Notes under the pieces: generated by a model
What the model saw: only the letters and a program-made list of their open reading frames with translations
Database searches by the model: none
What the model was told of the DNA's origin: nothing
Position numbers and translations under genes: made by a program
In this document: piece after piece, positions 1 through 14,318 of the stretch
How positions within the stretch are numbered: position 1 is the first letter of the stretch
Layout of the letters: every line of letters begins with the position of its first letter
Virus record (IMG/VR): IMGVR_UViG_3300046009_007297
Coordinates: 1-22,302 of that record
Length of the DNA: 22,302 nt
Direction: 5' to 3' (one strand)
Source: a virus

Positions 1-1504
1 CTTGTGTACTAGGAACACCAGCTACTATTAAGTTACATTGGTATACTGTACTTGCGGTTATATTAAATCTTTGAGCCCTTATTATATCTCCTACTTGGAA
101 ACTGTGTCCATATTGGCTTCCGGTATCGAACGTTAAGTAATATGTATTATTTCCCAAATCAGTAGCTGTTTCTACTTTTCCTGTGTTTGAGACAAATATA
201 GATCCGTTTGTAGCACGAATTTGAGAGATTAATAGTTCGTATACTTTCATAGTACCGCGAACTGTTAAATTATCTAATTCTAAAGAATATAAATTACTAC
301 TGTCTAATTTCCATCCGCTTCCTGCAAAGCCAGAAAAGAAAGTAGGAGAATTTAAATTATTTGCAAAAGTAGAAACTCCAGTTACACCTAGCGTAGTTCC
401 AATAGTTGTAGAATTAGCAACACGCAAATCAGAACCCGATATCCAACTTGATGCTGATATTATAGATGCTGTTAAGGCTCCTCTTATTATTGTATTTCCA
501 TTTATATCTAGTAAAGCAGTAGGTGTTGTTGTATTTATACCTACATTACCGCTATTACTAATAGTCATTCTTACAGAACCGTTAGTTTCAAATTGTAAAT
601 TTTGGTTGTCATTAGTACCTAAAAGTGCAGTTGTACCAAATGAATTGCCTCCTTGCACAAATACATTAGTACTGGTAATATTTACAAAAGACGCTGTTTG
701 AGCATTAATAGCATTTGAAGCACTTTGTGCCCATGAAGATGTTATTTGGTATGTTCCAACAGGTAAAAACGAAGCTGTTCGAGCATTAATAGCGTTAGAG
801 GCACTTTGTGCCCAAGATGCTGTTCCAAATAATGAACCGGTTATACTATTAGAAGCAGATATTATAGAGGCTGTTATAGAAGTAGCAGTTATACCGCCAT
901 TTACTTGAAAAGTATTTGTAGGAGTTATTGTACCTATACCTATATTATTACCGCTTTGGTAAATTGCTGAAGTAGCAATCGTAGATGTTCCAGTCCATAA
1001 TGGTATATAGTTAGCACTACCTGCTCCTGTTAAACTCCCTCCTCCAGCTGTCGTTATAGACGATGTATTAAATATTGTAACATTTCCATTACTATCTACC
1101 CCCAGCACTTGTGCCTGAATAGCAGTCGAAAGTTGAGTTCTAAAAGTTCCACTTATATGTAATGTTGAAGAAGGTGTTATAGTTCCAATACCTATATTTC
1201 CACTTGAGCTTACATATAAAAATGTAGATGAACCGCTTTGTACCCTAAAAGTATTTGCTCCTATATTTACAGCAGCTGTTATACTTCCTGTTGTAATTCT
1301 ATCTCCTACAGTTCCTCCACTTCCCGATACTCCTGTAGTTAGTGATAATCTATTGTCTTCTCCTATAGTTAACACATAGCTATTCCATCCTCGAGTAACT
1401 ATAGGGATTTGGTTTTTATTTATACCAAAAGCTTGATCAAAGTAGGCTTTACCTTTATTAGGAAGATCTAATCTATTATTACCACTTTTTCTATTTTCAG
1501 CCAT
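1..1504 (-). CDS. Tail-fibre-like virion protein, 3' end cut by window edge
   Basis: An open frame runs from an ATG at 1504 to the left edge without a stop (501 codons seen), starting MAENRKSGNNRLDLP. It carries GIGT/GINT-TP modules near residues 102-110, 182-192 and 313-325, known from phage tail fibres. Around residues 225-290 are two GTASWAQSASNAINA-type segments joined by FLPVGTYQITSSW. From about residue 380 a different domain begins (SPTFFSGFAGSGWKLD, then LTVRGTMKVYELLISQIRA). From memory this resembles a segment of large structural proteins in Bacteroidetes phages; I could not check that. It is most likely a receptor-facing or baseplate-attached fibre. The ATG follows TATTTATA by 20 nt. 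The C-terminal tip lies outside the window, so receptor-binding or chaperone domains cannot be judged. Confidence 0.75.
   Translation of the reverse strand, partial: MAENRKSGNNRLDLPNKGKAYFDQAFGINKNQIPIVTRGWNSYVLTIGEDNRLSLTTGVSGSGGTVGDRITTGSITAAVNIGANTFRVQSGSSTFLYVSSSGNIGIGTITPSSTLHISGTFRTQLSTAIQAQVLGVDSNGNVTIFNTSSITTAGGGSLTGAGSANYIPLWTGTSTIATSAIYQSGNNIGIGTITPTNTFQVNGGITATSITASIISASNSITGSLFGTASWAQSASNAINARTASFLPVGTYQITSSWAQSASNAINAQTASFVNITSTNVFVQGGNSFGTTALLGTNDNQNLQFETNGSVRMTISNSGNVGINTTTPTALLDINGNTIIRGALTASIISASSWISGSDLRVANSTTIGTTLGVTGVSTFANNLNSPTFFSGFAGSGWKLDSSNLYSLELDNLTVRGTMKVYELLISQIRATNGSIFVSNTGKVETATDLGNNTYYLTFDTGSQYGHSFQVGDIIRAQRFNITASTVYQCNLIVAGVPSTQ
810..875 (-). repeat. Fibre cassette repeat, copy in left-edge fibre gene
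   Basis: More diverged copy of the same 66-bp cassette, keeping the core TTCCAAATAATGAACC (plus strand) and AGAAGCAGATATTATAGA. A second shared segment in this gene (about 739-780) matches 9779-9820 in the collagen-bearing fibre gene and encodes FLPVGTYQITSSW. Confidence 0.75.
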
Positions 1505-1524
1505 ACTGCTTTATACTACCTCTA

Positions 1525-1532
1525 TATAAATA
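1525..1532 (-). promoter_or_regulatory. TATTTATA motif before the partial fibre gene
   Basis: The coding strand reads TATTTATA, 20 nt upstream of the ATG at 1504. It lies within an inverted repeat (CTCTAT / ATAGAG, 1520-1535) with a four-base loop. This is one of six intergenic copies of the 8-mer. A promoter role is inferred from position only. Confidence 0.4.
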
Positions 1533-1538
1533 GAGTCC

Positions 1539-1709
1539 TTAGTATATTTTATTCTCTTTGGTTTGTTTTAATTTCCCCATCGCTTCTTCGGATGTAAGTA
1601 ACTTACCTACACTTGCCATTTTTTGAAATTCTTCCATAGTAATACTGATAATGGGTTTACCACTATCTTTAATTTGTTGGAGGAGTTGAGGTGTGGGTTT
1701 AAGGAACAT
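1539..1709 (-). CDS. Small hypothetical protein, 56 aa
   Basis: This short frame runs from ATG 1709 to TAA at 1539-1541 and encodes a Lys/Gln/Glu-rich peptide (MFLKPTPQLLQQIKDSGKPI at the N-terminus, ending KQTKENKIY). It begins 10 nt after the stop of the 193-aa fibre-like gene and ends about 35 nt before the next fibre start, so it fits the operon spacing exactly. A predicted helix covers most of residues 25-50 (EEFQKMASVGKLLTSEEAM). No signal peptide or membrane segment is visible. I do not recognise a family. Two similar-sized genes sit between other fibre genes here (6384-6557 and 6562-6774), so small helical proteins accompany fibres in this module. A chaperone or adaptor role is speculation. 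Confidence 0.6.
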   Translation of the reverse strand: MFLKPTPQLLQQIKDSGKPIISITMEEFQKMASVGKLLTSEEAMGKLKQTKENKIY

Positions 1710-1719
1710 AGTGTTAGCG

Positions 1720-2301
1720 TTAGTTAGGTAAATAACAGGGGATTAGGACAGTATTTCCATTTAATTTTATTTCCATCCAATAATCAGGTGTTCCTAACGC
1801 AAAATCATCAGCAGTTTGCCCATATATTTCCTTAGCGGGAACATCTGGTACGTATCTTGGTGGAGGATTACTAGCTCGTGCAGCATCAATTTGAATATAT
1901 TTTGTACCTGAAGGGTCTGATGTTATGTGTATATATTCGGCAGGTGATGATTCTTGTATTCCAACAAAACCACTACCTGCAGTTACAAGTATTCTTGAAT
2001 TTCCACCCGTAAAAACATCAATTGCTCCAGTTGGTGTTTCAGTTCCTATACCAACATTACCATCGCCCTGTACAAATAATGCTGCCGATGCTGATGGTGA
2101 AGATACCCGCAGTAATGATTGATTATTTGCCCCACTTATATGTAATCTTGCAGAAGGGGTTAATAATCCTATACCTACATTACCACTACCTGATATAAAT
2201 AATGCTGCTGATGCGGTTGGTGATGATACTTGTAATAGAATGGCATTATTTGAACCAGTTATTGAAGCATTGTCTAATATGGTAGGTGAAAATATATCCA
2301 T
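1720..2301 (-). CDS. Fibre-like virion protein with duplicated GIG-TP module, 193 aa
   Basis: The N-terminal half holds two copies of one unit of about 42 residues: SNNAILLQVSSPTASAALFI then SGNVGIGLLTPSARLHISG, repeated as NNQSLLRVSSPSASAALFV then GNVGIGTETP. The duplication is also visible in the DNA (2060-2130 against 2190-2260). A third, weaker copy (GGNSRILVTAGSGFVGIQESSP) follows. The C-terminus (TPDYWMEIKLNGNTVLIPCYLPN) is a compact module that, from memory, closes short fibre-associated proteins in T4-like marine phages. It probably sits on the tail fibre or baseplate. It lies 5 nt after the stop of the 938-aa gene, with an A-rich leader (AATAAAA) and no Shine-Dalgarno sequence. Confidence 0.7.
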   Translation of the reverse strand: MDIFSPTILDNASITGSNNAILLQVSSPTASAALFISGSGNVGIGLLTPSARLHISGANNQSLLRVSSPSASAALFVQGDGNVGIGTETPTGAIDVFTGGNSRILVTAGSGFVGIQESSPAEYIHITSDPSGTKYIQIDAARASNPPPRYVPDVPAKEIYGQTADDFALGTPDYWMEIKLNGNTVLIPCYLPN

Positions 2302-2306
2302 TTTTA

Positions 2307-5123
2307 TTAATAGAATATTAAGGTTCTGAAGTGCGGTGTATCATTACTTCTTAAATAGTATAAGTAATCTAATCCATCCTCACTCGTTTTTAATATCATT
2401 CTTTGAGATTGTCTTGCTGTTGAGTTACCTGCTGGTAATGTGGTTGCACCATTCTCCATTATATCTCTATCAGTATCTATGTAAACAAACTGAGCTGAGA
2501 CGTTAGGTTGAATATAAATTCGGTTTTTACCATCATAAGTAATATTAGTTCCATCAGTCAAGTTTAATGTTGTGGAGTGATGCCAAGGTGGTATAAACGG
2601 ATACTCATACATCATCGTTGCTATATTGTATTTTACAAACCTTAATGTAGAGTTTGCCTCAAACATATAAATGTATTTTCCCAATGAGCTAGTTGGTGTT
2701 AAGTTACTACCACTCTCTCTACCATATATCCATTTCATATCAGCACCCCCAGCACCTGATGTTGTAGATGTTGTATTTCTTCTACCAGTTGGTAAAATGC
2801 TATAAACAGTTGTTGTATCAGGCGTTGCAGTAGTACCACCAGCAGTATTAGTAGTACCAAAGGTTATTGTGTTGCTGGTATTTGATGAGATAGTTGCTTC
2901 TTGTCCAACACCCGTTCCTGCTAAAAATCTAATTTGAGCACCTACCCAAAAGTTAGTAGGCCAGTTTTTAGTACCATCTACAAGGGTAGATGCAGTACCT
3001 CCTGTTGCTGTTCCAAAACCACGTGATGATGATAATTCAACAGGTAATACTACGTTAGTAGTTGTTGCTGTTGCATTTTGTGAAATTGAAGCTGTTATAA
3101 ATAATCCGTTTGAACTTGTTTCATATGAGCGGTAAAAAGTACCTGCAGGAATACCACTGCCTGTAATAGGAGCACCAATAGGAATAGCTTGAATTGTAGG
3201 TAATTGATTTCCTGCTCCTGATGCGCTTAAAAATACTAAACTTGAGCCGTTGGTAATACTACCTGTCAAATAAAAGCTACTTGTTCCTGTTGTTAATCCT
3301 GTATCTAATCCGTAACTTGCTCCAAATGCTTGAGGGCTTAATATGTTGTACCCCCACACGGCTGTATTACCTGTTAAGGAAGTAGCAGACGCCATAGCGG
3401 TTGCTAATGTCAATGATTGTGAAGTATTTGCAGTAATTCTTGAATAGTTAGTTGTAGGTGCGGTTGGTGAACTGCTCCATACTTGTACTATATTACCTAC
3501 ATGCTCATTTGTTACCCAGTTTTTAGATGTATCAAATAATAGTGTAGTTGTATGTGCGTTTAATACCGCATTTGCTGATGGTGTACTACCCATCGCATAA
3601 GTGAATTGAGTAGGTTGTGAAGTACCTGTTAAAGTAGCTGATAGTGGATATGATGATGTTACAACAAAATTACCATTGTAAATTGCAGCATCTGCTCCTG
3701 TTGCACCTGTAATTGTTATTCTGTCTCCAGTTTCAAAAGGATGTCCTGTAATTGTTGTTACAGTAGCAATATTACCTGTTCTTGTAATTGCTGATATAGG
3801 AACTTGAAAACTAAAAGATGAAGAATACCTAACTGAAGCAACATTCGCTACACCTTCATCTAACCTTTGAGATGGATAAACTGAATTATTTAAGTTGGAG
3901 AATTGTCCTACTGTAGCAAAGTTACCGCCATTTATATAGGATTTATCATCATCCACTATAATTTCGTATTGATTTGAACCACTTGGTGCTATATCTAAAT
4001 CAGCAGCAAATTGAAGAGTGTTGCTAGTATTTGAAGTTATTAATCTTTCAATACCATTTGTTTTATTTACAAACCTATAATTTCTCCATTGATTAATTCC
4101 CCAGTTTTGGGTAGTATCTACCGCTAAACGAGCTGAACCACTTGTTAAACTTCCAGTAACAAATGGAGGTACTAATTCAGATGAAATAGGTTCATATTGT
4201 AATGTAGTTAAAGCTAAATAATTAGGCATTACACCTGTTTGAGTATGTAATGGAAACCAGTTAGCATATAACGGATCATACCTGTAAGCTAAATAAAATG
4301 CATTAGTAGATATATTTTGAATACTAACTAATGAACCTACATTGATTTCAAAACGTGAACTTTTATCTAAATTAGTAGTCCAAGGAGTATCTACTGTAAT
4401 AGTGCTCCGTTGAATAACACATCGAGTAGCAGTTCCTACTGAAATTGCGTTAGCATCATATACATGGTTATATGCCTGATTAGGGTCGGTTACATGCCAT
4501 TCTGCATTAGCAAAGAATAGAGTATCATTGTTGTTATATAATACCCTTCTAATAAAATATTGTTGTGAAGTTCCTAAATATGCTCTTACTTGATAACCTC
4601 TCCATTGATTAGGCACCCACTTTTTGGTAGTATCAGTTATTGAAGTTACACCTGTTGTGGTGTTTGTATAAGTTGCAGTCGGAGTTAGATATTCAATATT
4701 TTCAGGTTGAGTACAAGCGGTAATAGTTCTTTCCTGTCCTCTACCCAATCCAGCTACTACTTTTATTTTTAACCCAACCACAGCACTTTCATTAATAAAT
4801 GCTCCGATTGCAGTTGAACTACCACTTGTCCCTGCTATAAAGTTACCATAGTGTCCTTGACTTAAATCCCATGAACCATTTACAGTTGATGCTGGTGAGT
4901 TAGGTAATAAAGCACCTAATGTTGTCCAAGAATCACTGTAAGTGTCATATAGGTACATTGTTGTAGCCGAAGTGTGGAAATTATACCTATTATACCGGCT
5001 TCCAGTTGCTGCAGCAGGGAAGTTATAAACACAAGAGTTTGCTGCGGTAGTATAAGGTGAATACCTCATCCATTCCCATACGGGCTGGTCTACCATTGTT
5101 TTTAATCGTTTTGTTAGTGCCAT
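2307..5123 (-). CDS. Large virion structural protein with four-fold repeat, 938 aa
   Basis: This is the largest gene in the window. It encodes a Ser/Thr/Asn-rich, probably beta-rich protein with no transmembrane segment. Four repeats share a core Trp-x-x-Asn-x-(Trp/His)-x-Gly/Asn: WVPNQWRGY (169), WGINQWRNY (341), WVTNEHVGN (536) and WPTNFWVGA (721). Each is preceded by DTTK/DTTQ/DTSK/DGTK and followed about 20-30 residues later by an (R/E)x(I/L/T)xxNTSxxLxF-type strand. A partial unit may lie at residues 115-135 (GLKIKVVAGLGRGQERTI). The C-terminal 140 residues are aromatic-rich and lack the repeat (GKYIYMFEANSTLRFVKYN and onwards). It sits among fibre genes, so a tail, baseplate or neck-fibre component is likely. 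I do not recognise a T4 counterpart. Confidence 0.7.
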   Translation of the reverse strand: MALTKRLKTMVDQPVWEWMRYSPYTTAANSCVYNFPAAATGSRYNRYNFHTSATTMYLYDTYSDSWTTLGALLPNSPASTVNGSWDLSQGHYGNFIAGTSGSSTAIGAFINESAVVGLKIKVVAGLGRGQERTITACTQPENIEYLTPTATYTNTTTGVTSITDTTKKWVPNQWRGYQVRAYLGTSQQYFIRRVLYNNNDTLFFANAEWHVTDPNQAYNHVYDANAISVGTATRCVIQRSTITVDTPWTTNLDKSSRFEINVGSLVSIQNISTNAFYLAYRYDPLYANWFPLHTQTGVMPNYLALTTLQYEPISSELVPPFVTGSLTSGSARLAVDTTQNWGINQWRNYRFVNKTNGIERLITSNTSNTLQFAADLDIAPSGSNQYEIIVDDDKSYINGGNFATVGQFSNLNNSVYPSQRLDEGVANVASVRYSSSFSFQVPISAITRTGNIATVTTITGHPFETGDRITITGATGADAAIYNGNFVVTSSYPLSATLTGTSQPTQFTYAMGSTPSANAVLNAHTTTLLFDTSKNWVTNEHVGNIVQVWSSSPTAPTTNYSRITANTSQSLTLATAMASATSLTGNTAVWGYNILSPQAFGASYGLDTGLTTGTSSFYLTGSITNGSSLVFLSASGAGNQLPTIQAIPIGAPITGSGIPAGTFYRSYETSSNGLFITASISQNATATTTNVVLPVELSSSRGFGTATGGTASTLVDGTKNWPTNFWVGAQIRFLAGTGVGQEATISSNTSNTITFGTTNTAGGTTATPDTTTVYSILPTGRRNTTSTTSGAGGADMKWIYGRESGSNLTPTSSLGKYIYMFEANSTLRFVKYNIATMMYEYPFIPPWHHSTTLNLTDGTNITYDGKNRIYIQPNVSAQFVYIDTDRDIMENGATTLPAGNSTARQSQRMILKTSEDGLDYLYYLRSNDTPHFRTLIFY

Positions 5124-5126
5124 AAT

Positions 5127-5645
5127 TTAACTGAATTCTAATTGGTTTCTTAAAGTTGCGTATGCTATTCTGGATTGTAGTACAAATGTGGACTCGGGTG
5201 CTGATATTGTTGCGTTACCAGAAGGTCCGTTTATCATAGTACTTTGCATTACTGTTGCTGTTCCTGTACTGCCCCCAATATCAATACTCTGTCTACCACT
5301 GGCATCTTGTCTTGATATTGGTTCTAATAATTTAACCATTCTACCTAATAGTGCCGTTTGGTCACTCAAATATTGTAGAGTTTCTTGTGATGCAGGAGTA
5401 TATTGGTTTTCTAAAAATATCTGCAAACTATCACTATCACTCATTAGTGATGTATTATATGTTAATGTTAATACATTACCACTTATAGTTCCCCCATAGT
5501 TAGGGTCTGCGAAGTTATAAATAATAAGATTATCGGTTACATTTGTTATAATTAATAGCTGTTGTAATGATATTGCTTCTGATGTGTTAAATGTGATTTG
5601 CTTTGCAGCCGCATTAAATGTATAATCTTCAAATAATATTTTCAT
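5127..5645 (-). CDS. Structural protein of fibre module, 172 aa
   Basis: The N-terminal 85 residues are predominantly beta (ITFNTSEAISLQQLLIITNV, GGTISGNVLTLTYNTSL). A helical segment follows (ETLQYLSDQTALLGRMVKLL, about residues 88-108), and the C-terminal part is Gly/Ser-rich and polar. From memory, small proteins with this DQTALLGRMVKLLEP segment occur next to fibres in marine T4-like phages, but I cannot name a function. The start ATG (5645) overlaps the stop of the 64-aa gene upstream as ATGA, so the two are probably translationally coupled. It ends 3 nt before the 938-aa gene. A trimeric adaptor that joins fibre proteins would fit, but this is inference. Confidence 0.65.
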   Translation of the reverse strand: MKILFEDYTFNAAAKQITFNTSEAISLQQLLIITNVTDNLIIYNFADPNYGGTISGNVLTLTYNTSLMSDSDSLQIFLENQYTPASQETLQYLSDQTALLGRMVKLLEPISRQDASGRQSIDIGGSTGTATVMQSTMINGPSGNATISAPESTFVLQSRIAYATLRNQLEFS

Positions 5646-5836
5646 AATACCCCATCATGTTTTATAATTCTACATAGTTTTGGATGATTTTCAATTTGTA
5701 ATTTTTCTATGTACCTCTCCGCATCTTCGTAAGAAGTAAATAGGTATATTGGGTTATTTTCCCCATCAACCAATGAAGCCCACATAGAGTTGTTACCATC
5801 TAAAAATTGTATTTGTATTTCGTATCGTTCATTCAT
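5642..5836 (-). CDS. Small hypothetical protein, 64 aa
   Basis: This is a compact soluble protein with a likely beta-beta-alpha-beta pattern: YEIQIQFLDG, ASLVDGENNPIYLF, the helix EDAERYIEKLQI, then CRIIKHDGVL. No signal peptide or membrane segment is seen. Its TGA stop overlaps the ATG of the 172-aa structural gene by four bases (ATGA), which is good evidence that it is genuinely translated. The start codon follows an AT-rich leader without Shine-Dalgarno. I do not recognise a family. Its size and fold pattern fit a small assembly factor or accessory protein for the downstream structural protein, which is inference from coupling alone. Confidence 0.65.
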   Translation of the reverse strand: MNERYEIQIQFLDGNNSMWASLVDGENNPIYLFTSYEDAERYIEKLQIENHPKLCRIIKHDGVL

Positions 5837-5854
5837 ATCTATTATATATAGTTT

Positions 5855-6289
5855 TTATAAAACAATTGAATATGCTATCATTAAAGAAAGTGCGTTATTA
5901 GGTAACACACTACCTACTGTCGCACTTGCATATCCAGCTCTTGCCGTTGAAAATGTTATAACTGATTGATTATCTGATGTTCCTTGAATTGAATCAGGAA
6001 CCACCACTTGATAACTATTATCGTATACTGTTATTACAGGTGTTCTAAAATTAAGATTGTGATTAAAAGTCCAAGTAGTTGAAGCAACTGATTGTGTGAA
6101 TGTTGCAAAGTTTTGACCAGAAAATGATGATGCAGTTAGTGCGTTTTGAGCCCAAGAGGATGTTCCAAATAGTGAACCAGTAATGCCGCTAGAAGCAGAT
6201 ATTATAGATGCAGTTAAAGATGTCGCTAAGCTAAGCGAGTTAAGGGATGCATCTGATCCCGATGTAATTAATTTCTTCCAATTCGGCAC
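5855..6289 (-). CDS. Miniature tail-fibre paralogue, 144 aa, GTG start
   Basis: The N-terminus MPNWKKLITSGSDASLNSLS matches the start of the 628-aa fibre (MATWKKVIVSGSNAHLTGIT). It then has the shared module ASIISASSGITGSLFGTSSW (residues ~28-47), encoded by a DNA cassette also present in that gene. The C-terminal ~85 residues differ: TTWTFNHNLNFRTPVITVYD, then a strand-rich tail ending LSLMIAYSIVL. From memory this C-terminal domain recurs at the tips of T4-like phage fibre proteins. The only plausible start is GTG at 6289: there is no in-frame ATG between it and an upstream TAA at 6311-6313. The gene therefore looks like a short fibre with the same attachment end and an alternative tip. Confidence 0.75.
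   Translation of the reverse strand: MPNWKKLITSGSDASLNSLSLATSLTASIISASSGITGSLFGTSSWAQNALTASSFSGQNFATFTQSVASTTWTFNHNLNFRTPVITVYDNSYQVVVPDSIQGTSDNQSVITFSTARAGYASATVGSVLPNNALSLMIAYSIVL
6150..6215 (-). repeat. Fibre cassette repeat, copy in mini-fibre gene
   Basis: A 66-bp cassette encoding SIISASSGITGSLFGTSSWA is found at 6150-6215, 7798-7863 and, more diverged, at 810-875. By hand I count about six differences between the first two. A shorter related copy (about 33 bp, GSLFGTASWA part) lies at 9834-9867. The copies are in four different fibre genes, all in the same orientation. Confidence 0.8.
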
Positions 6290-6383
6290 ACCTATTTCTA
6301 TTATGGTTGGTTACAACAAATGTGTGTTGTCCACTTCCCTTTCGGGCCAATAATATCAATAATAAATATGTAAAAAAAAAGTA
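6290..6383 (-). other. Structured intergenic leader of the GTG-start fibre gene
   Basis: In transcription order this gap holds a run of nine T (6372-6380), a TATTTATT sequence near 6359-6366, a small CCC-GAAA-GGG hairpin (6337-6346, GNRA-type loop) and an ACAACA / TGTTGT inverted repeat (6313-6330, six-base stem). It is the longest gap inside the fibre module. The T run could end the upstream transcript and the hairpins could lie in the leader of the fibre mRNA. Function is inferred only. Confidence 0.35.
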
Positions 6384-6557
6384 TTATTGCTGAGATTCTA
6401 GAGCTTTTTCAAGTTCTTTGTCCCTTTTTTGAACTTCTTTATTGTACATATTTTCTACTTTGTCTTGTAATGTTACCATTTTGCGAGCACTAGCTCCCGT
6501 AATAGTAAGTAAATCTAGACCTTGCCTAATAACAGATAATTCTTCAATTGTAAACAT
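6384..6557 (-). CDS. Small coiled-coil-like hypothetical protein, 57 aa
   Basis: The frame runs from ATG 6557 to TAA at 6384-6386 and encodes an almost entirely helical, charged peptide: MFTIEELSVIRQGLDLLTIT, then a helix from about residue 24 to 57 with many Lys, Glu and Gln (KVENMYNKEVQKRDKELEKA, ending LESQQ). Hydrophobic spacing suggests a short coiled coil. It starts 4 nt after the stop of the neighbouring small gene, so the pair looks like one unit. No signal peptide or membrane segment is present. I recognise no family. Its place between two fibre genes suggests an oligomerisation or assembly helper, but nothing in the sequence proves that. Confidence 0.6.
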   Translation of the reverse strand: MFTIEELSVIRQGLDLLTITGASARKMVTLQDKVENMYNKEVQKRDKELEKALESQQ

Positions 6558-6561
6558 AACA

Positions 6562-6774
6562 TTATTGGTTTATTTTGGAATGATATTCTTGTAATTTATA
6601 TGCTAAATCGTATATTAATTCAACCATATTGCCACTAAATGTGGAATTTTTTATAAGGGTTAATAAAAATTCTATTTCTTGTTTTGATAAATCTATAGAA
6701 TGAGTAACAACAGCAGGAAGTTCTGGTTGTTTTTGAGAAGAAATAATATTTAGATTAGATGCATTAAAAGCCAT
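6562..6774 (-). CDS. Small hypothetical protein, 70 aa
   Basis: I chose ATG 6774 (MAFNASNLNIISSQKQPELP). The frame stays open upstream to ATGs at 6801 and 6837, but the 6837 start would overlap the end of the 628-aa fibre gene and both longer forms would place TATTTATA inside or immediately before the gene. The body is soluble, with a helical segment SKQEIEFLLTLIKNSTFSGN and a second helix MVELIYDLAYKLQEYHSKIN at the C-terminus. From memory, the run 'LSKQEIEFLLTLIKNSTFSG' recalls small conserved proteins of marine T4-like phages with unknown role. If ATG 6837 is used, the extra N-terminus (FLKINIFIGMVTYLKKLF) would be hydrophobic, which changes the prediction. Confidence 0.6.
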   Translation of the reverse strand: MAFNASNLNIISSQKQPELPAVVTHSIDLSKQEIEFLLTLIKNSTFSGNMVELIYDLAYKLQEYHSKINQ

Positions 6775-6804
6775 AAACAGTTTTTTTAAGTATGTTACCA
6801 TACC

Positions 6805-6812
6805 TATAAATA
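6805..6812 (-). promoter_or_regulatory. TATTTATA motif between 628-aa fibre gene and small gene
   Basis: The coding strand reads TATTTATA, 9 nt after the stop of the fibre gene and 30 nt before ATG 6774 (3 nt before the alternative ATG 6801). The spacing to 6774 is longer than at the other copies. Promoter function is inferred from recurrence. Confidence 0.35.
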
Positions 6813-6821
6813 TGTTAATTT

Positions 6822-8708
6822 TTAAGAATAAATCCAAATACTTTCATCTCCACTTGAAACATAAATATTACCTACGGCATTGTACCGGGTTGCGGGGGAT
6901 GGAGTAGTACCTGCTGCTGTAACAACTGCGGCCATAAATGCATCTGGTGTGAATCCAGCTTGGTTAGCACTAAATGAACTTGTAATACCCCAACGTAAAG
7001 TATTTGTAGCATCCCATCCAAAAGCTTCACCAACACCTTGTGAACCGGATTGTTGAATTACAATACCACCATCACCGCTTGGCGAAGTACCTGATCCTGA
7101 GGCTAATAGTATGAATCTATCAGCTACTAATAAGTTTGTGGTCTCTTGGAAAGAAGCGGTACCTATTACTGTTATATCTTTATTAAATACTACGTTACTC
7201 GCAAATGTTGTCGTTCCGGAAGTATTTCCAATGTTTAATGCTGTTGAGGCTCCACCTGCAAAGTTAACTGTTGTTGCGGTTCCATTTACTAAGTTAAAAG
7301 TAGTTGAGGTTGTTGTTATATCACCACCATTTACTGCTAAATCACCTGTTAATGTTGTGTTGCCTGTTACTTGTAAAGTACCTGCTATTGTGCTACTACC
7401 ACCGATAGTTTCATTACCTGTTATATGTAAAGTTGATCCTGAAATATTACCTGATGCTGATATTGCTGATCCGGTTAAAGCACCGGTTAAAGTAGTTGCA
7501 CCTGTTACCCCTAATGTGCCTCCTATGGTAGCATTACCAGTTGCAGTTAATGTTGTACCTAATAAACCAGCTGATGAACTAATAGCTCCAGATGCGGTGA
7601 TAGTTGTAGTTGTTATAGCGCCGTTTGCTGTTAATCTACCAGTTAATGTAGTAGCACCGGAGTTTGTTAATGTACTGCCGTCAAATGTTAAATTAGCTTC
7701 ACCATTTATTGTTCCACCACCGGTTGCAGTTAATACTCTATTATCAGTATTATTTGTTATAGCAGGAAATATATTTGAAGCAGTTAGAGCATTTGTTGCC
7801 CAAGATGATGTTCCAAATAATGAACCTGTAATGCCACTTGAAGCAGATATTATAGAAGCAGTAACAGCACCTGTAAATGTTGGTGATGCAGAAAATACCA
7901 AAGTACCTGTTCCGGTTTCATCCGTTACTGCAGCTGCCAAATTTGCCGAAGATGGAGTGCTTAAGAATGTTGCTACACCTGTGCCCAATGTTTGAGTTGC
8001 CACCCTATTTGAAGATGTGATAACTAACATGGTGCTTGAAAGAGCACCTACGGCCAATTGGTTAGCTAGTGTAAGGGTTTGAGCGTTTACAGTTACAGTA
8101 TCAGCGCTTGCATCACCTAATATGGTTGAACCGCTAACTGTTAGCCCTAATGATAAATCAGCTGATCTTGCATATATATCTCTAACATATACTTGATTAA
8201 ATCTTAAACCGGAGTTTACACCTATGTTTACAGTATCAGTTGTGTTTGGAGCTAATATTTTAGAAACAGTGATTCTATCATTGATGCTATCGTAGCTAAG
8301 ACCTCCAGAACCAGTAAACTTACTTTTACCTATTGGTGTAGTCCAGTAAAGGAACTCTCCACTTGATGCGGTTACAGCAGCTCGAACAGTAGCTGCAGAA
8401 TTACCATCATAGGTAAAATCTTCTATACCGTCTCCAGCAGTTAAGTCTTGTAAATTTACACTTAAACTACCACTAAATGTTCCTGTAAAAGAACCGCTAA
8501 AAGAACCCGTTAATACTGAATTAGTACCAGTTGAAGTTATATTGGCACCGCCAATTGCTAAAGTAGTTCCGTCATAGGTTAATCCACTATTTTCAATTTG
8601 GCCGACATTGCCCGCGATAAGTAAATTATCATTTGTTAATACTGATGATGTTATTCCAGTTAAGTGTGCATTACTACCGGATACAATGACTTTTTTCCAA
8701 GTTGCCAT
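6822..8708 (-). CDS. Large tail-fibre protein with trimeric-fibre repeats, 628 aa
   Basis: The N-terminus MATWKKVIVSGSNAHLTGIT matches the 144-aa mini-fibre. The middle includes FLSTPSSANLAAAVTDETGT and SGITGSLFGTSSWATNALTA. About residues 340-520 are a long run of Thr/Gly/Ala-rich repeats (TIGGTLGVTGATTLTGALTG, TIAGTLQVTGNTTLTGDLAV), typical of elongated trimeric beta shafts. The C-terminus (LLVADRFILLASGSGTSPSG, GDGGIVIQQSG, GNIYVSSGDESIWIYS) resembles, from memory, the end domain of structural fibres in T4-like cyanophages. It should be a long fibre attached at the baseplate or neck. It starts with ATG 21 nt after TATTTATA. The low stop-codon density of these repeats also leaves a long spurious frame on the opposite strand. 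Confidence 0.8.
   Translation of the reverse strand: MATWKKVIVSGSNAHLTGITSSVLTNDNLLIAGNVGQIENSGLTYDGTTLAIGGANITSTGTNSVLTGSFSGSFTGTFSGSLSVNLQDLTAGDGIEDFTYDGNSAATVRAAVTASSGEFLYWTTPIGKSKFTGSGGLSYDSINDRITVSKILAPNTTDTVNIGVNSGLRFNQVYVRDIYARSADLSLGLTVSGSTILGDASADTVTVNAQTLTLANQLAVGALSSTMLVITSSNRVATQTLGTGVATFLSTPSSANLAAAVTDETGTGTLVFSASPTFTGAVTASIISASSGITGSLFGTSSWATNALTASNIFPAITNNTDNRVLTATGGGTINGEANLTFDGSTLTNSGATTLTGRLTANGAITTTTITASGAISSSAGLLGTTLTATGNATIGGTLGVTGATTLTGALTGSAISASGNISGSTLHITGNETIGGSSTIAGTLQVTGNTTLTGDLAVNGGDITTTSTTFNLVNGTATTVNFAGGASTALNIGNTSGTTTFASNVVFNKDITVIGTASFQETTNLLVADRFILLASGSGTSPSGDGGIVIQQSGSQGVGEAFGWDATNTLRWGITSSFSANQAGFTPDAFMAAVVTAAGTTPSPATRYNAVGNIYVSSGDESIWIYS
7798..7863 (-). repeat. 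Fibre cassette repeat, copy in 628-aa fibre gene
   Basis: Closest match of the 66-bp cassette to the copy at 6150-6215, located about 305 codons into the 628-aa fibre gene and preceding a different downstream sequence. Confidence 0.8.
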
Positions 8709-8729
8709 ATATTATGTTTTATTGTTTAT

Positions 8730-8737
8730 TATAAATA
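8730..8737 (-). promoter_or_regulatory. TATTTATA motif before the 628-aa fibre gene
   Basis: TATTTATA on the coding strand begins directly after the TGA stop of the upstream fibre gene (8738-8740) and ends 21 nt before ATG 8708. The following sequence continues ATAAAC and contains a TATAAT hexamer overlapping the motif. Confidence 0.45.
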
Positions 8738-10261
8738 TCATGAAAATCCAAAAAAGTAATCATTTTCTGCAGAAAAATAAATTCCTCCAGCTACTGGGGT
8801 AGGGGATGAACTTAATGTTCCTAGTACTACTATACCTTCATTGTTAATTTTAAATTTATCTGTATCTCCGTTGCTATCATTTAATTTTACTAATAAAGTA
8901 TCATTAGATGATGATCCTGATATTGTTAAGGATGCAGATTGGTGTGTTGTCCCTATTGAAACTTTTTTTATTATACATAATGATTCTTGTAAAGTAACAT
9001 CTCCTTGTGTTACATCTATAGAACCACTAAATACAGCGGGACCTATATTTGTTAATGTATTAGAACCGCTAATTAAAACAGAACCCACAACTTGTAATTT
9101 TGCTGTAGGTGTTGTTGTACCTATACCTACATTTTGATCTTCAGTTAAGCTCATTACTGAAGCTGTAGTGCCTGTTTTTGGATCACCTCCGGTAATTCCC
9201 GTAGTAAGAATAAAATCTTGTATTTGTTTGCCGCCTACTTGTCTTTGAGCAGTTGAAAATGCACTATTACCTAACGCGGCATCACCTTTTGATGTGTATA
9301 TTTCAGGTATAATAGCATAATGTTTTCTATTACCATCGCCTGGTCCAACTATTAATCGCAATCCACCGGCGTCTGTACCCGGTATTGATACAACATCTGT
9401 TATTATTATAGCATTTGCATTAGAAACAACGCCTGTCCCATTAGCAGAACTTAATACACCATTAAAGTTTCTAAGTAAATCGCCGGATGCACCGGGTGCT
9501 CGAACAGAACCTGAAAATGAACCAGTAAACGATGTTGCTGTTATACCCCCATTTACTTGTAGAGTGTTTATAGGAGTAGTTGTACCTATACCTATTCGAC
9601 CACTTGAACTTATAAAAAAATAAGTAGAGGAACCACTTTGTATTCTAAATGTATCATTATTTACATTTACGGATGCGGTTATGCTACCCGTTGAAATACG
9701 AGATAAATTTAATCCTACAACATTTTGAGCATCTATATAAGAGGCGGTAAGTGCTTGTGAGGCGCTAATGGCCCAAGATGATGTTATTTGGTATGTGTTA
9801 ACTGGTAGGAAGGATGCGGTTAAAGCATTTATTGCCCAACTTGCCGTTCCAAATAGTGAACCAGTAAATGATGTTGCTGTTACAGAACCAGGAGAGCCAC
9901 TTACAAATATAGAACCAGTTACAATTAAGCCAGAAGCAGCAGTAATTACACCAGGAGGGCCTATAGGGCCAACAGGGCCAACAGGACCCTGAGCACCAAT
10001 GGTAGCAACTTGTATAACTTTTGTAATAGGTTGTATAACATCTACTTCAACAATAGGAGTTTCATTGTAAGTAAATATGCTTTTACCCGAAGTTTGTATG
10101 TTTATATTAACTGGATCTGCTTCTACTACAATTTGGTTAGATGTAGGCGGTGTTATTTGTGCATTATAAGATACATTAGTAATCAAAAGCAGATTTTCGT
10201 CTGTTTGAACAGTTACCGTATTACTTGTAGAATCAATTGCAATTTGATTCGGGATAGACAT
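8738..10261 (-). CDS. Tail-fibre protein with short collagen-like segment, 507 aa
   Basis: Residues 1-85 form a beta-rich N-terminal domain (QIAIDSTSNTVTVQTDENLL). A collagen-like stretch of six Gly-x-y triplets follows at residues 89-106 (GAQGPVGPVGPIGPPGVI), then the shared fibre modules SFTGSLFGTASWAINALTAS and SFLPVNTYQITSSW, two GIGTTTP modules (SGRIGIGTTTPINTLQV and NVGIGTTTPTAKLQV), and a C-terminal tail rich in Asn/Asp/Lys (LVKLNDSNGDTDKFKINNEG, ending SAENDYFFGFS). Such triplets are known in phage fibres as trimerisation segments. It is very likely a trimeric receptor-facing or linker fibre. It starts 2 nt after the 134-aa gene, so the two are probably co-translated. It shares DNA cassettes with the partial fibre at the left edge. 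Confidence 0.8.
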   Translation of the reverse strand: MSIPNQIAIDSTSNTVTVQTDENLLLITNVSYNAQITPPTSNQIVVEADPVNINIQTSGKSIFTYNETPIVEVDVIQPITKVIQVATIGAQGPVGPVGPIGPPGVITAASGLIVTGSIFVSGSPGSVTATSFTGSLFGTASWAINALTASFLPVNTYQITSSWAISASQALTASYIDAQNVVGLNLSRISTGSITASVNVNNDTFRIQSGSSTYFFISSSGRIGIGTTTPINTLQVNGGITATSFTGSFSGSVRAPGASGDLLRNFNGVLSSANGTGVVSNANAIIITDVVSIPGTDAGGLRLIVGPGDGNRKHYAIIPEIYTSKGDAALGNSAFSTAQRQVGGKQIQDFILTTGITGGDPKTGTTASVMSLTEDQNVGIGTTTPTAKLQVVGSVLISGSNTLTNIGPAVFSGSIDVTQGDVTLQESLCIIKKVSIGTTHQSASLTISGSSSNDTLLVKLNDSNGDTDKFKINNEGIVVLGTLSSSPTPVAGGIYFSAENDYFFGFS

Positions 10262-13313: not shown

Positions 13314-14318
13314 TTAAATAGGTTTTTTAATTCCGGCTAAAATTTGGAATCTGTTTATTACGTCAGTAGATAGTACATCAACGCTTTCTGTAATAACTCT
13401 TTTAGGAGCATTACCTGTGGGTCTAGATGCAAATCCTCTACTTTCGTTTACTTTTACTTTTGCTTTAGATGATAAACTACTATTAGTTGATTCATATACT
13501 AACTTAGCTTCAGCTGTAGTAGTAGCTTTATCAAATGAAGCCATGATATTAACTACCTGAGATTCAGATAATGAATGATTTTTCATTAACTTACTAAGAT
13601 AGAGTAGTTTAGCGTTAAGCAAGTTCACTTCTGTCAAGTCTCTTTTTAGAGTGTTAATTGTCTTTAATGCTTCTGTTAATTGACGATTCTGTTTGTTTGA
13701 TTTTTCATTTCGAGTTCTGAAAGATTTTAGTTCTTGTAGAATATCTTCTATATCCGGTTCTTCTTCGTGGGATTCATGTGTTGGTTCATCTTCAATTTCT
13801 TCTAATTCCAACTCTGCTAAGAGTTCTTCTAAGTTAATATCATCAGAATCTTCCATATTGCTCTCCATACCGCTTTCTGTTCCGGATTCGACATCACCTT
13901 GTGGTTGAATTCCCATTGCTTGAAGTTCATCCCGAACTGCTTTTGCGATAAAAGATTCTAACTCCGGTATATCCATATCTCCTACTTCTATATCAGTCTC
14001 TTCGTCTTCAGGTTTTTCATCTTCAGGCATTTCGTCTTCAGGCATTTCGTCTTCAGGCATTTCGTCTTCAGGCATTTCGTCTTCAGGCATTTCGTCTTTA
14101 GGTTTTTTACTACTTTTTTTAGCTTCTTTCTTCATTTCTTTTTCCTCTTCCGTAATTTTGTCTTCTTCCTCTAGTTCGTTTAATTTGTTTGCAATTAATT
14201 TACTTAGTCTCGGAGTTATTGTCTCTTCTAATGCAGCTTTGGCATTTGCAATAGCGGCCTCACGGACTGCTTTAGCTTCAGCAATAGCCTCTTTAAATAA
14301 AGTTGAATTACTTTCCAT
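13314..14318 (-). CDS. Prohead scaffold/core protein (T4 gp22-like), 334 aa
   Basis: Order of parts: an Ala/Glu/Lys helix (1-54), a Lys-rich hinge (60-74), a tandem acidic PEDEM repeat (73-105), an acidic linker (140-190), a long coiled-coil helix (about 191-245), and a C-terminal segment ending NRFQILAGIKKPI that recalls the end of gp22-family proteins. Position between protease and capsid gene matches T4 gene 22. It should form the internal core that shapes the prohead and is then destroyed by the gp21-like protease. At 334 residues it is longer than T4 gp22 (269), partly through the acidic repeat. A hairpin-rich 149-bp gap precedes its start, so its expression may be set separately from the protease. 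Confidence 0.85.
   Translation of the reverse strand: MESNSTLFKEAIAEAKAVREAAIANAKAALEETITPRLSKLIANKLNELEEEDKITEEEKEMKKEAKKSSKKPKDEMPEDEMPEDEMPEDEMPEDEMPEDEKPEDEETDIEVGDMDIPELESFIAKAVRDELQAMGIQPQGDVESGTESGMESNMEDSDDINLEELLAELELEEIEDEPTHESHEEEPDIEDILQELKSFRTRNEKSNKQNRQLTEALKTINTLKRDLTEVNLLNAKLLYLSKLMKNHSLSESQVVNIMASFDKATTTAEAKLVYESTNSSLSSKAKVKVNESRGFASRPTGNAPKRVITESVDVLSTDVINRFQILAGIKKPI
14001..14105 (-). repeat. 15-bp tandem repeat inside the scaffold gene
   Basis: Seven consecutive 15-bp units encode (K/M)P(E/K)DE. Four central units (14031-14090) are identical on the plus strand (TTCGTCTTCAGGCAT), and the outer three differ by one to four bases. The period of 15 keeps the reading frame, so copy-number change would only lengthen or shorten the acidic arm. 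Confidence 0.95.

Follow-up and report, generated by a model that had tools for sequence, protein, structure and literature searches.

Four tail-fibre genes in one fragment of an uncultured phage share a short repeated segment, which raises the question of whether this segment is a place where unrelated fibre parts become joined, and whether it acts as DNA or as protein. The initial annotation took the repeats to be built-in DNA sites for the swapping of fibre tips. The window, i.e. the whole stretch of 22,302 nt analysed here (positions 1–22,302 of IMG/VR record IMGVR_UViG_3300046009_007297), is a metagenomic contig and covers a fragment of the phage. Its genes, which all lie on the minus strand, are those of a T4-like phage: terminase, portal, protease and scaffold (these four named by their likeness to annotated immuto genes), then gp23-type capsid and PhoH, followed by tail or fibre genes. 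Among isolates, Flavobacterium phage immuto has the most similar capsid protein (63% identity), and no close whole-genome relative of the window was found, the best capsid match being 67%. The phage is an uncultured T4-like one, probably with hosts of the flavobacterial type. In transcription order, its fibre genes are as follows:

8738–10261, minus strand: fibre gene G, with a collagen-like stretch
6822–8708, minus strand: fibre gene F, with a MATWKK anchor
5855–6289, minus strand: fibre gene E
2307–5123, minus strand: fibre gene C
1720–2301, minus strand: fibre gene B, with two 41-aa GNVGIG repeats
2–1504, minus strand: fibre gene A, which runs off the window

Pfam assigned no fibre family to these genes and PHROGs gave only weak tail-fibre matches; neither collection gave a match to a homologue of T4 gp38 among the fibre genes of this window, the contig being a fragment. 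No tRNA or Rfam RNA was found in the window. Two further features of the window were recorded: a 15-bp unit (MPEDE) repeated about seven times at 14001–14102, inside an acidic scaffold-like gene (13314–14318), and a small conserved ORF at 6562–6837 that overlaps the end of gene F and has relatives in about 50 loci of the set then compared.

An in-frame motif, (TASIISASSG)ITGSLFGTSSWAxNALTAS, hereafter called the cassette, is common to genes A, E, F and G. Its copies, and the segments used along with them below, are:

9834–9867, minus strand: partial cassette copy in gene G (TGSLFGTASWA), with a 34-nt core in common
7798–7863, minus strand: cassette copy in gene F
6150–6215, minus strand: cassette copy in gene E (TASIISASSGITGSLFGTSSWA), where homology with several relatives changes
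810–875, minus strand: cassette copy in gene A
447–475, minus strand: short fifth copy in gene A (LTASIISAS), found by blastn within the window and absent from the initial annotation
9779–9820, minus strand: second common segment in gene G (TASFLPVNTYQITS), repeat family D7
739–780, minus strand: second common segment in gene A (TASFLPVGTYQIT), repeat family D7
6216–6289, minus strand: anchor at the N terminus of gene E (xPNWKKLITSGSDASLNSLSLATSL), a module found widely in this position

The four copies originally reported were all present, in frame and on the minus strand. Those of E and F, said to carry about six differences, differ at 7 of 66 bases (60 of 69 agree when neighbouring codons are included), and the copy of A is more diverged (56–58 of 69 bases agree). 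Matches extend to 85% over 92 nt between E and F and to 73% between E and A, and a blastn search of the window with the E copy recovered the others at E = 2e-25, 1e-18 and 4e-8. The longest exact runs between copies are 17–22 bp, for which ‘near-identical DNA’ was too strong a description. The FLPVxTYQITSSW segment is indeed shared by A and G, at 72% over 88 nt. Given the identical protein and the codon usage of the phage, codon choice in E and F coincides at 15 of 22 sites vs 8.4 expected (P ~0.002), and an excess against the same expectation was also obtained for E/A (P ~0.016) and F/A (P ~0.01); the DNA likeness of the window copies modestly exceeds what the common protein alone predicts. 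All copies lie in the same orientation, so inversion between them, as in invertase-type switching, is impossible. A further repeat that had not been listed with these, GNVGIGT..P..LxVxG, occurs at 498–553, 897–952, 1149–1204, 2132–2187, 9084–9139 and 9549–9604.

We then looked at the motif in about 300 related viral contigs, loci of which are given L-numbers. The core is TGSLFGT[AS]S[WYF]A, mostly followed by xNAxTAS (347 copies at 163 loci, the window included), a consensus that is partly fixed by the copy-finding pattern, with W favoured by the search. A single ORF carries up to nine cassette copies. The FLPVxTYQIT-type motif occurred 25 times in 19 ORFs, 14 of these within 40 aa after a cassette. 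When the consensus was searched against 50,697 phage records, only immuto isolates matched, with a cassette-like motif in a tail spike protein, so the motif seems to belong mainly to uncultured phages. A cassette scan of bacterial genomes returned two MAG contigs only (one Sphingobacteriales, one Chthoniobacterales), too few to name a host.

The positions of joints between unrelated fibre sequences were evaluated on a nonredundant set of 208 ORFs with 329 cassettes. Flanks were taken well outside the motif and its surroundings were excluded, because windows touching the motif could be inflated by the composite GIGT-cassette repeat; the test pairs are not fully independent, and near-identical ORFs were merged and per-ORF means used. 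Where one flank was at least 75% identical, the other was unrelated at 78% of cassettes when conditioned on the upstream flank (95% range 69–87%) and at 81% when conditioned on the downstream flank (73–89%). The corresponding values were 53% and 41% when positions in these ORFs were drawn at random, and 12% and 14% for non-fibre ORFs, which carry no cassette. Many of the loci had been gathered by motif search, which affects the apparent frequency of the motif, not the comparison of flanks. DNA homology ended within 40 bp of a cassette 3.0–3.5 times as often as under random placement in the same ORFs for the sets of at least 75% and at least 85% identity, a level never reached in 500 randomisations, and the enrichment was 2.7-fold in the set of at least 90% identity, the smallest one (52 ends). 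Upstream families with at least two downstream partners amounted to 30 of 37 at cassettes vs 13 of 30, 20 of 33 and 21 of 45 in controls, and an MPNWKK-type anchor with a nearby cassette was found in 21 ORFs, which fall into 19 unrelated tail families. Unrelated modules are joined preferentially at the cassette, and joints of this kind are present in the window too. The search for chimeric joints in related genomes that had been recommended at the outset was positive, in E, A and F individually and statistically over the 208 cassette ORFs. These sequence comparisons show the cassette to be a favoured joining place of unrelated fibre pieces, and the fibre genes look like assemblies of swappable parts.

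Whether the DNA of the cassette is kept for this role was examined at synonymous sites. Among the 19 orthologous pairs that share both flanks, codon identity was 0.88–0.94 in the cassette vs 0.88–0.97 in the flanks; since it is equal inside and outside, the cassette has no special DNA conservation. The GNVGIGT motif, in addition, was enriched as a joint to the same degree as the cassette in both the discordance and the homology-end tests. These two results, along with the shortness of the exact matches, speak against the term ‘built-in’; the cassettes are not unique as joints, and they are best seen as a protein repeat rather than as DNA kept for recombination. Codon identity of copies was 0.42 between genomes and 0.49 within genomes vs 0.38 and 0.40, respectively, expected from codon usage; the within-genome excess is modest but significant (per-locus difference 0.05 over 83 loci, Wilcoxon P = 3e-4; 0.19 vs 0.06 for the window). 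This small excess, together with the unexceptional synonymous sites, means that the copies resemble each other in DNA mainly because they encode the same protein motif. Pairs that are otherwise unrelated showed amino acid identities of 0.70–0.85 in the cassette core vs about 0.1 in the flanks, so that raw DNA identity, too, is higher in the motif than around it. In pairs related only upstream, the synonymous signal declines where the core starts (‘ITGS’), and in those related only downstream, it sets in there, which fits crossovers inside the motif without proving that homology guides them. Exact identity of up to 22 bp is short for efficient general recombination.

An AlphaFold model of E (26 sequences) gave a confident beta domain at residues 61–124 and low confidence over the anchor and the cassette, the model being a monomer that cannot reveal a trimeric shaft. 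A fold search of the PDB with this model returned nothing significant (best E = 0.09); in a viral structure library, the C-terminal domain of E resembled small beta domains found in many phage structural proteins, among them proteins with collagen repeats and Peptidase_S74.

These observations bear on an alternative in which the motif is a protein linker, i.e. a structurally tolerant boundary between modules: recombination would strike anywhere, only joints that can fold would survive, and DNA homology would play a minor part. The lack of excess synonymous conservation, the equal performance of GNVGIGT, the shortness of the exact matches and the location of the cassette in a low-confidence, linker-like part of the E model, just before a well-folded domain, all speak for it. 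The within-genome codon excess is at odds with it, however, as is the change of the synonymous signal inside the conserved core of one-sided pairs, which suits homology-guided crossover. We consider this alternative possible, albeit rather unlikely. The reading that we lean towards, with reasonable but far from complete confidence, is that a structural fibre repeat doubles as a recombination joint between fibre modules.

The joints of the window and its relatives were then traced gene by gene. Three features carry this comparison:

1558–6143, minus strand: exchanged block comprising the end of E, small genes, C and B; 91–95% DNA identity with L190, with one insertion in L190 at 2167–2202
5855–6133, minus strand: C-terminal beta domain of gene E, residues 61–124 well predicted; the same protein sequence is attached to a different 980-aa fibre in L190
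8462–8712, minus strand: N-terminal module of gene F, which matches L190 at 89.6% DNA identity and ends in the TGSFSGSFTG repeat

Positions 2167–6143 of the window match L190 at 91.2% DNA identity, and positions 1558–2202 match further along the same contig at 94.7%; from 2167/2168 onwards, the same block is found in L193 (84.6%) and L194 (76.7%). These matches end at 6143 (L190), 6183 (L193) and 6183 (L194), in or beside the cassette of E, and codon-by-codon likeness to L190 starts at the boundary between ALTAS and SFSGQNF. The capsid proteins of these three genomes are only 53–56% identical to that of the window (L190, 55%) and the terminases 46–59%; with capsids and terminases so distant, a block of such high identity indicates that it moved between distant phages. 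In L190, the identical C-terminal domain of E follows a cassette of its own and ends a different fibre of about 1,080 aa. A single contig carries the E joint of the window itself.

For gene A, L170 matches the window at 852–1536 (81%), so that its homology, covering the N-terminal half of A, ends in the cassette of A. L088 has a single gene with an E-like start and an A-like continuation, whose DNA matches the window at 6129–7177 and 526–876; its two matches overlap by 85 bp (L088 3396–3480), and this overlap is the cassette. All cassette copies are direct repeats, so recombination of the E copy with the A copy would produce a fusion of the L088 type. In gene F, the module after the cassette is common to L145, L150, L152, L153 and L090, the upstream parts of which are unrelated. 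Around the cassette of gene G, many loci carry the segment that follows and others the segment that precedes, but none of the related loci showed a clean recent joint. Of the earlier idea that tip domains are swapped, the exchange is supported; its restriction to tips is not, as N-terminal anchors, shaft pieces and a 4.6-kb block of genes are also exchanged.

Some further changes between the window and its relatives were observed along the way. The first ~80 codons of gene F match L190 and the rest of F differs, the joint lying in the TGSFSGSFTGTFSGSL repeat. L190 contains about 1.2 kb extra in gene B (L190 12045–13228), between copies of the GNVGIGLLTPSARLHISGA repeat (window 2167–2202), suggesting that fibres grow or shrink by recombination between the 41-aa repeats. 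For L190, L193, L194, L088 and L169, homology stops within one and the same short intergenic region, between B and A (1558–1600), as if this were a second conserved joint. The contig of L190 (3300007735_000793) also shows its terminase gene in two matches about 1.2 kb apart (L393/L394, 23656–26427; residues 7–254 and 248–525), and an intron, an intein or an inserted gene could account for the split.

Two other explanations fare much worse. Ordinary paralogy, in which the cassette would be the residue of an old fibre-gene duplication and recombination at the motif would not be needed, is highly improbable: the N-terminal anchor xxWKKxIxSGSxAxL common to E and F tells of some paralogy, but the cassette sits directly after the anchor in E and at residues 282, 210 and 132 in F, A and G among unrelated surroundings, vertical descent leaves high-identity one-sided homology with diverged cores unexplained, and the block of 91% identity between genomes with 55% capsid identity contradicts it. 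We give equally little credence to joints created by assembly at repeats, for although the contigs are metagenomic, assemblers can break or mis-join at repeats and L191 begins exactly at the E joint, the arrangement of the E domain in L190, L193 and L194 recurs in independent samples at 76–91% identity, that of anchor, cassette and same domain is found again in L195 and L196, discordance is seen in hundreds of contigs, the window contains exact repeats of no more than about 20 bp, and in the isolate immuto an E-type anchor is joined to a different tail.

On the favoured reading, the cassette would be a short structural repeat found in the tail-fibre proteins, presumably trimers, of a large group of uncultured phages, T4-like and other aquatic ones. 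It would stand between an N-terminal anchor, or a piece of shaft, and the fibre module that follows. Its presence in several fibre genes and in many phages would allow in-frame recombination between coinfecting phages or between copies inside one genome, with the RecA/UvsX-type recombination of the phage acting on about 60–90 bp of partial homology, so that whole distal or proximal fibre modules would be exchanged. RecA/UvsX-type recombinase genes were found in seven of nine related records. UvsX may be the enzyme that performs the crossover, and the DNA likeness of the cassette may guide it, rather than selection merely tolerating joints there. The fibre proteins presumably bind receptors, and the exchange may thereby alter host recognition. 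More broadly, and more tentatively, one short repeat could serve as a common in-frame joint through which aquatic, probably Bacteroidota-infecting phages share a community-wide pool of anchors, shafts and tips, exchanged between phages and between genes of one genome; we regard this as plausible, if somewhat short of an even chance.

Tail tips of phages such as the Bordetella phage, with its Mtd protein, are also diversified by diversity-generating retroelements, which change single adenine-derived positions. Here, by contrast, whole modules change, and the initial expectation that no reverse transcriptase is involved agrees with our searches, in which no RVT_1 was found in the nine related records and no reverse transcriptase family matched among the ten genes of the window that were scanned, which extend from the fibre end up to and including the capsid gene (Pfam/PHROG).

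Closer parallels exist in cultured phages. In T-even phages, recombination of tail-fibre genes at conserved motifs is a classic finding, as far as later papers relate it (Tetart 1998, as cited in PMC3797505, PMC4919323). From these accounts, the T-even case likewise concerns a T4-type tail-fibre locus in which short conserved motifs between variable modules are the swap joints; our motif is unrelated in sequence, is present in several fibre genes of one genome and is known from sequence alone. Conserved DNA motifs have also been described at the border of the anchor and the receptor-binding domain in tailspikes of E. coli O-antigen phages, and were proposed as hotspots (Pas et al. 2023, PMC10408124). 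In our case, single genes hold up to nine copies of the motif, which also lies inside shafts, and the joints were tested against control positions; moreover, the conservation reported for the tailspike motifs is DNA identity, whereas DNA-level conservation beyond that of the protein was tested here and not found. With both systems the cassette shares the flanking of the same motif by unrelated modules in different phages, and the enrichment of joints at the motif over other places in the same genes. The cassette motif itself did not come up in our literature search, a weak negative because the search was by idea rather than by sequence. Modular evolution of fibres at motifs is thus known, and what is new is a multi-copy protein repeat as the joint in uncultured phages.

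In practical terms, assemblies across these fibre genes need checking, and similarity of fibres on one side of the motif says little about similarity beyond it. Since a short motif marks the joint, it becomes possible to compile inventories of fibre parts, to delimit the modules of host recognition and to quantify fibre mosaicism in metagenomic data. The cassette gives a definite place at which fibre shuffling can be tested in abundant uncultured phages, probably with flavobacteria-type hosts.
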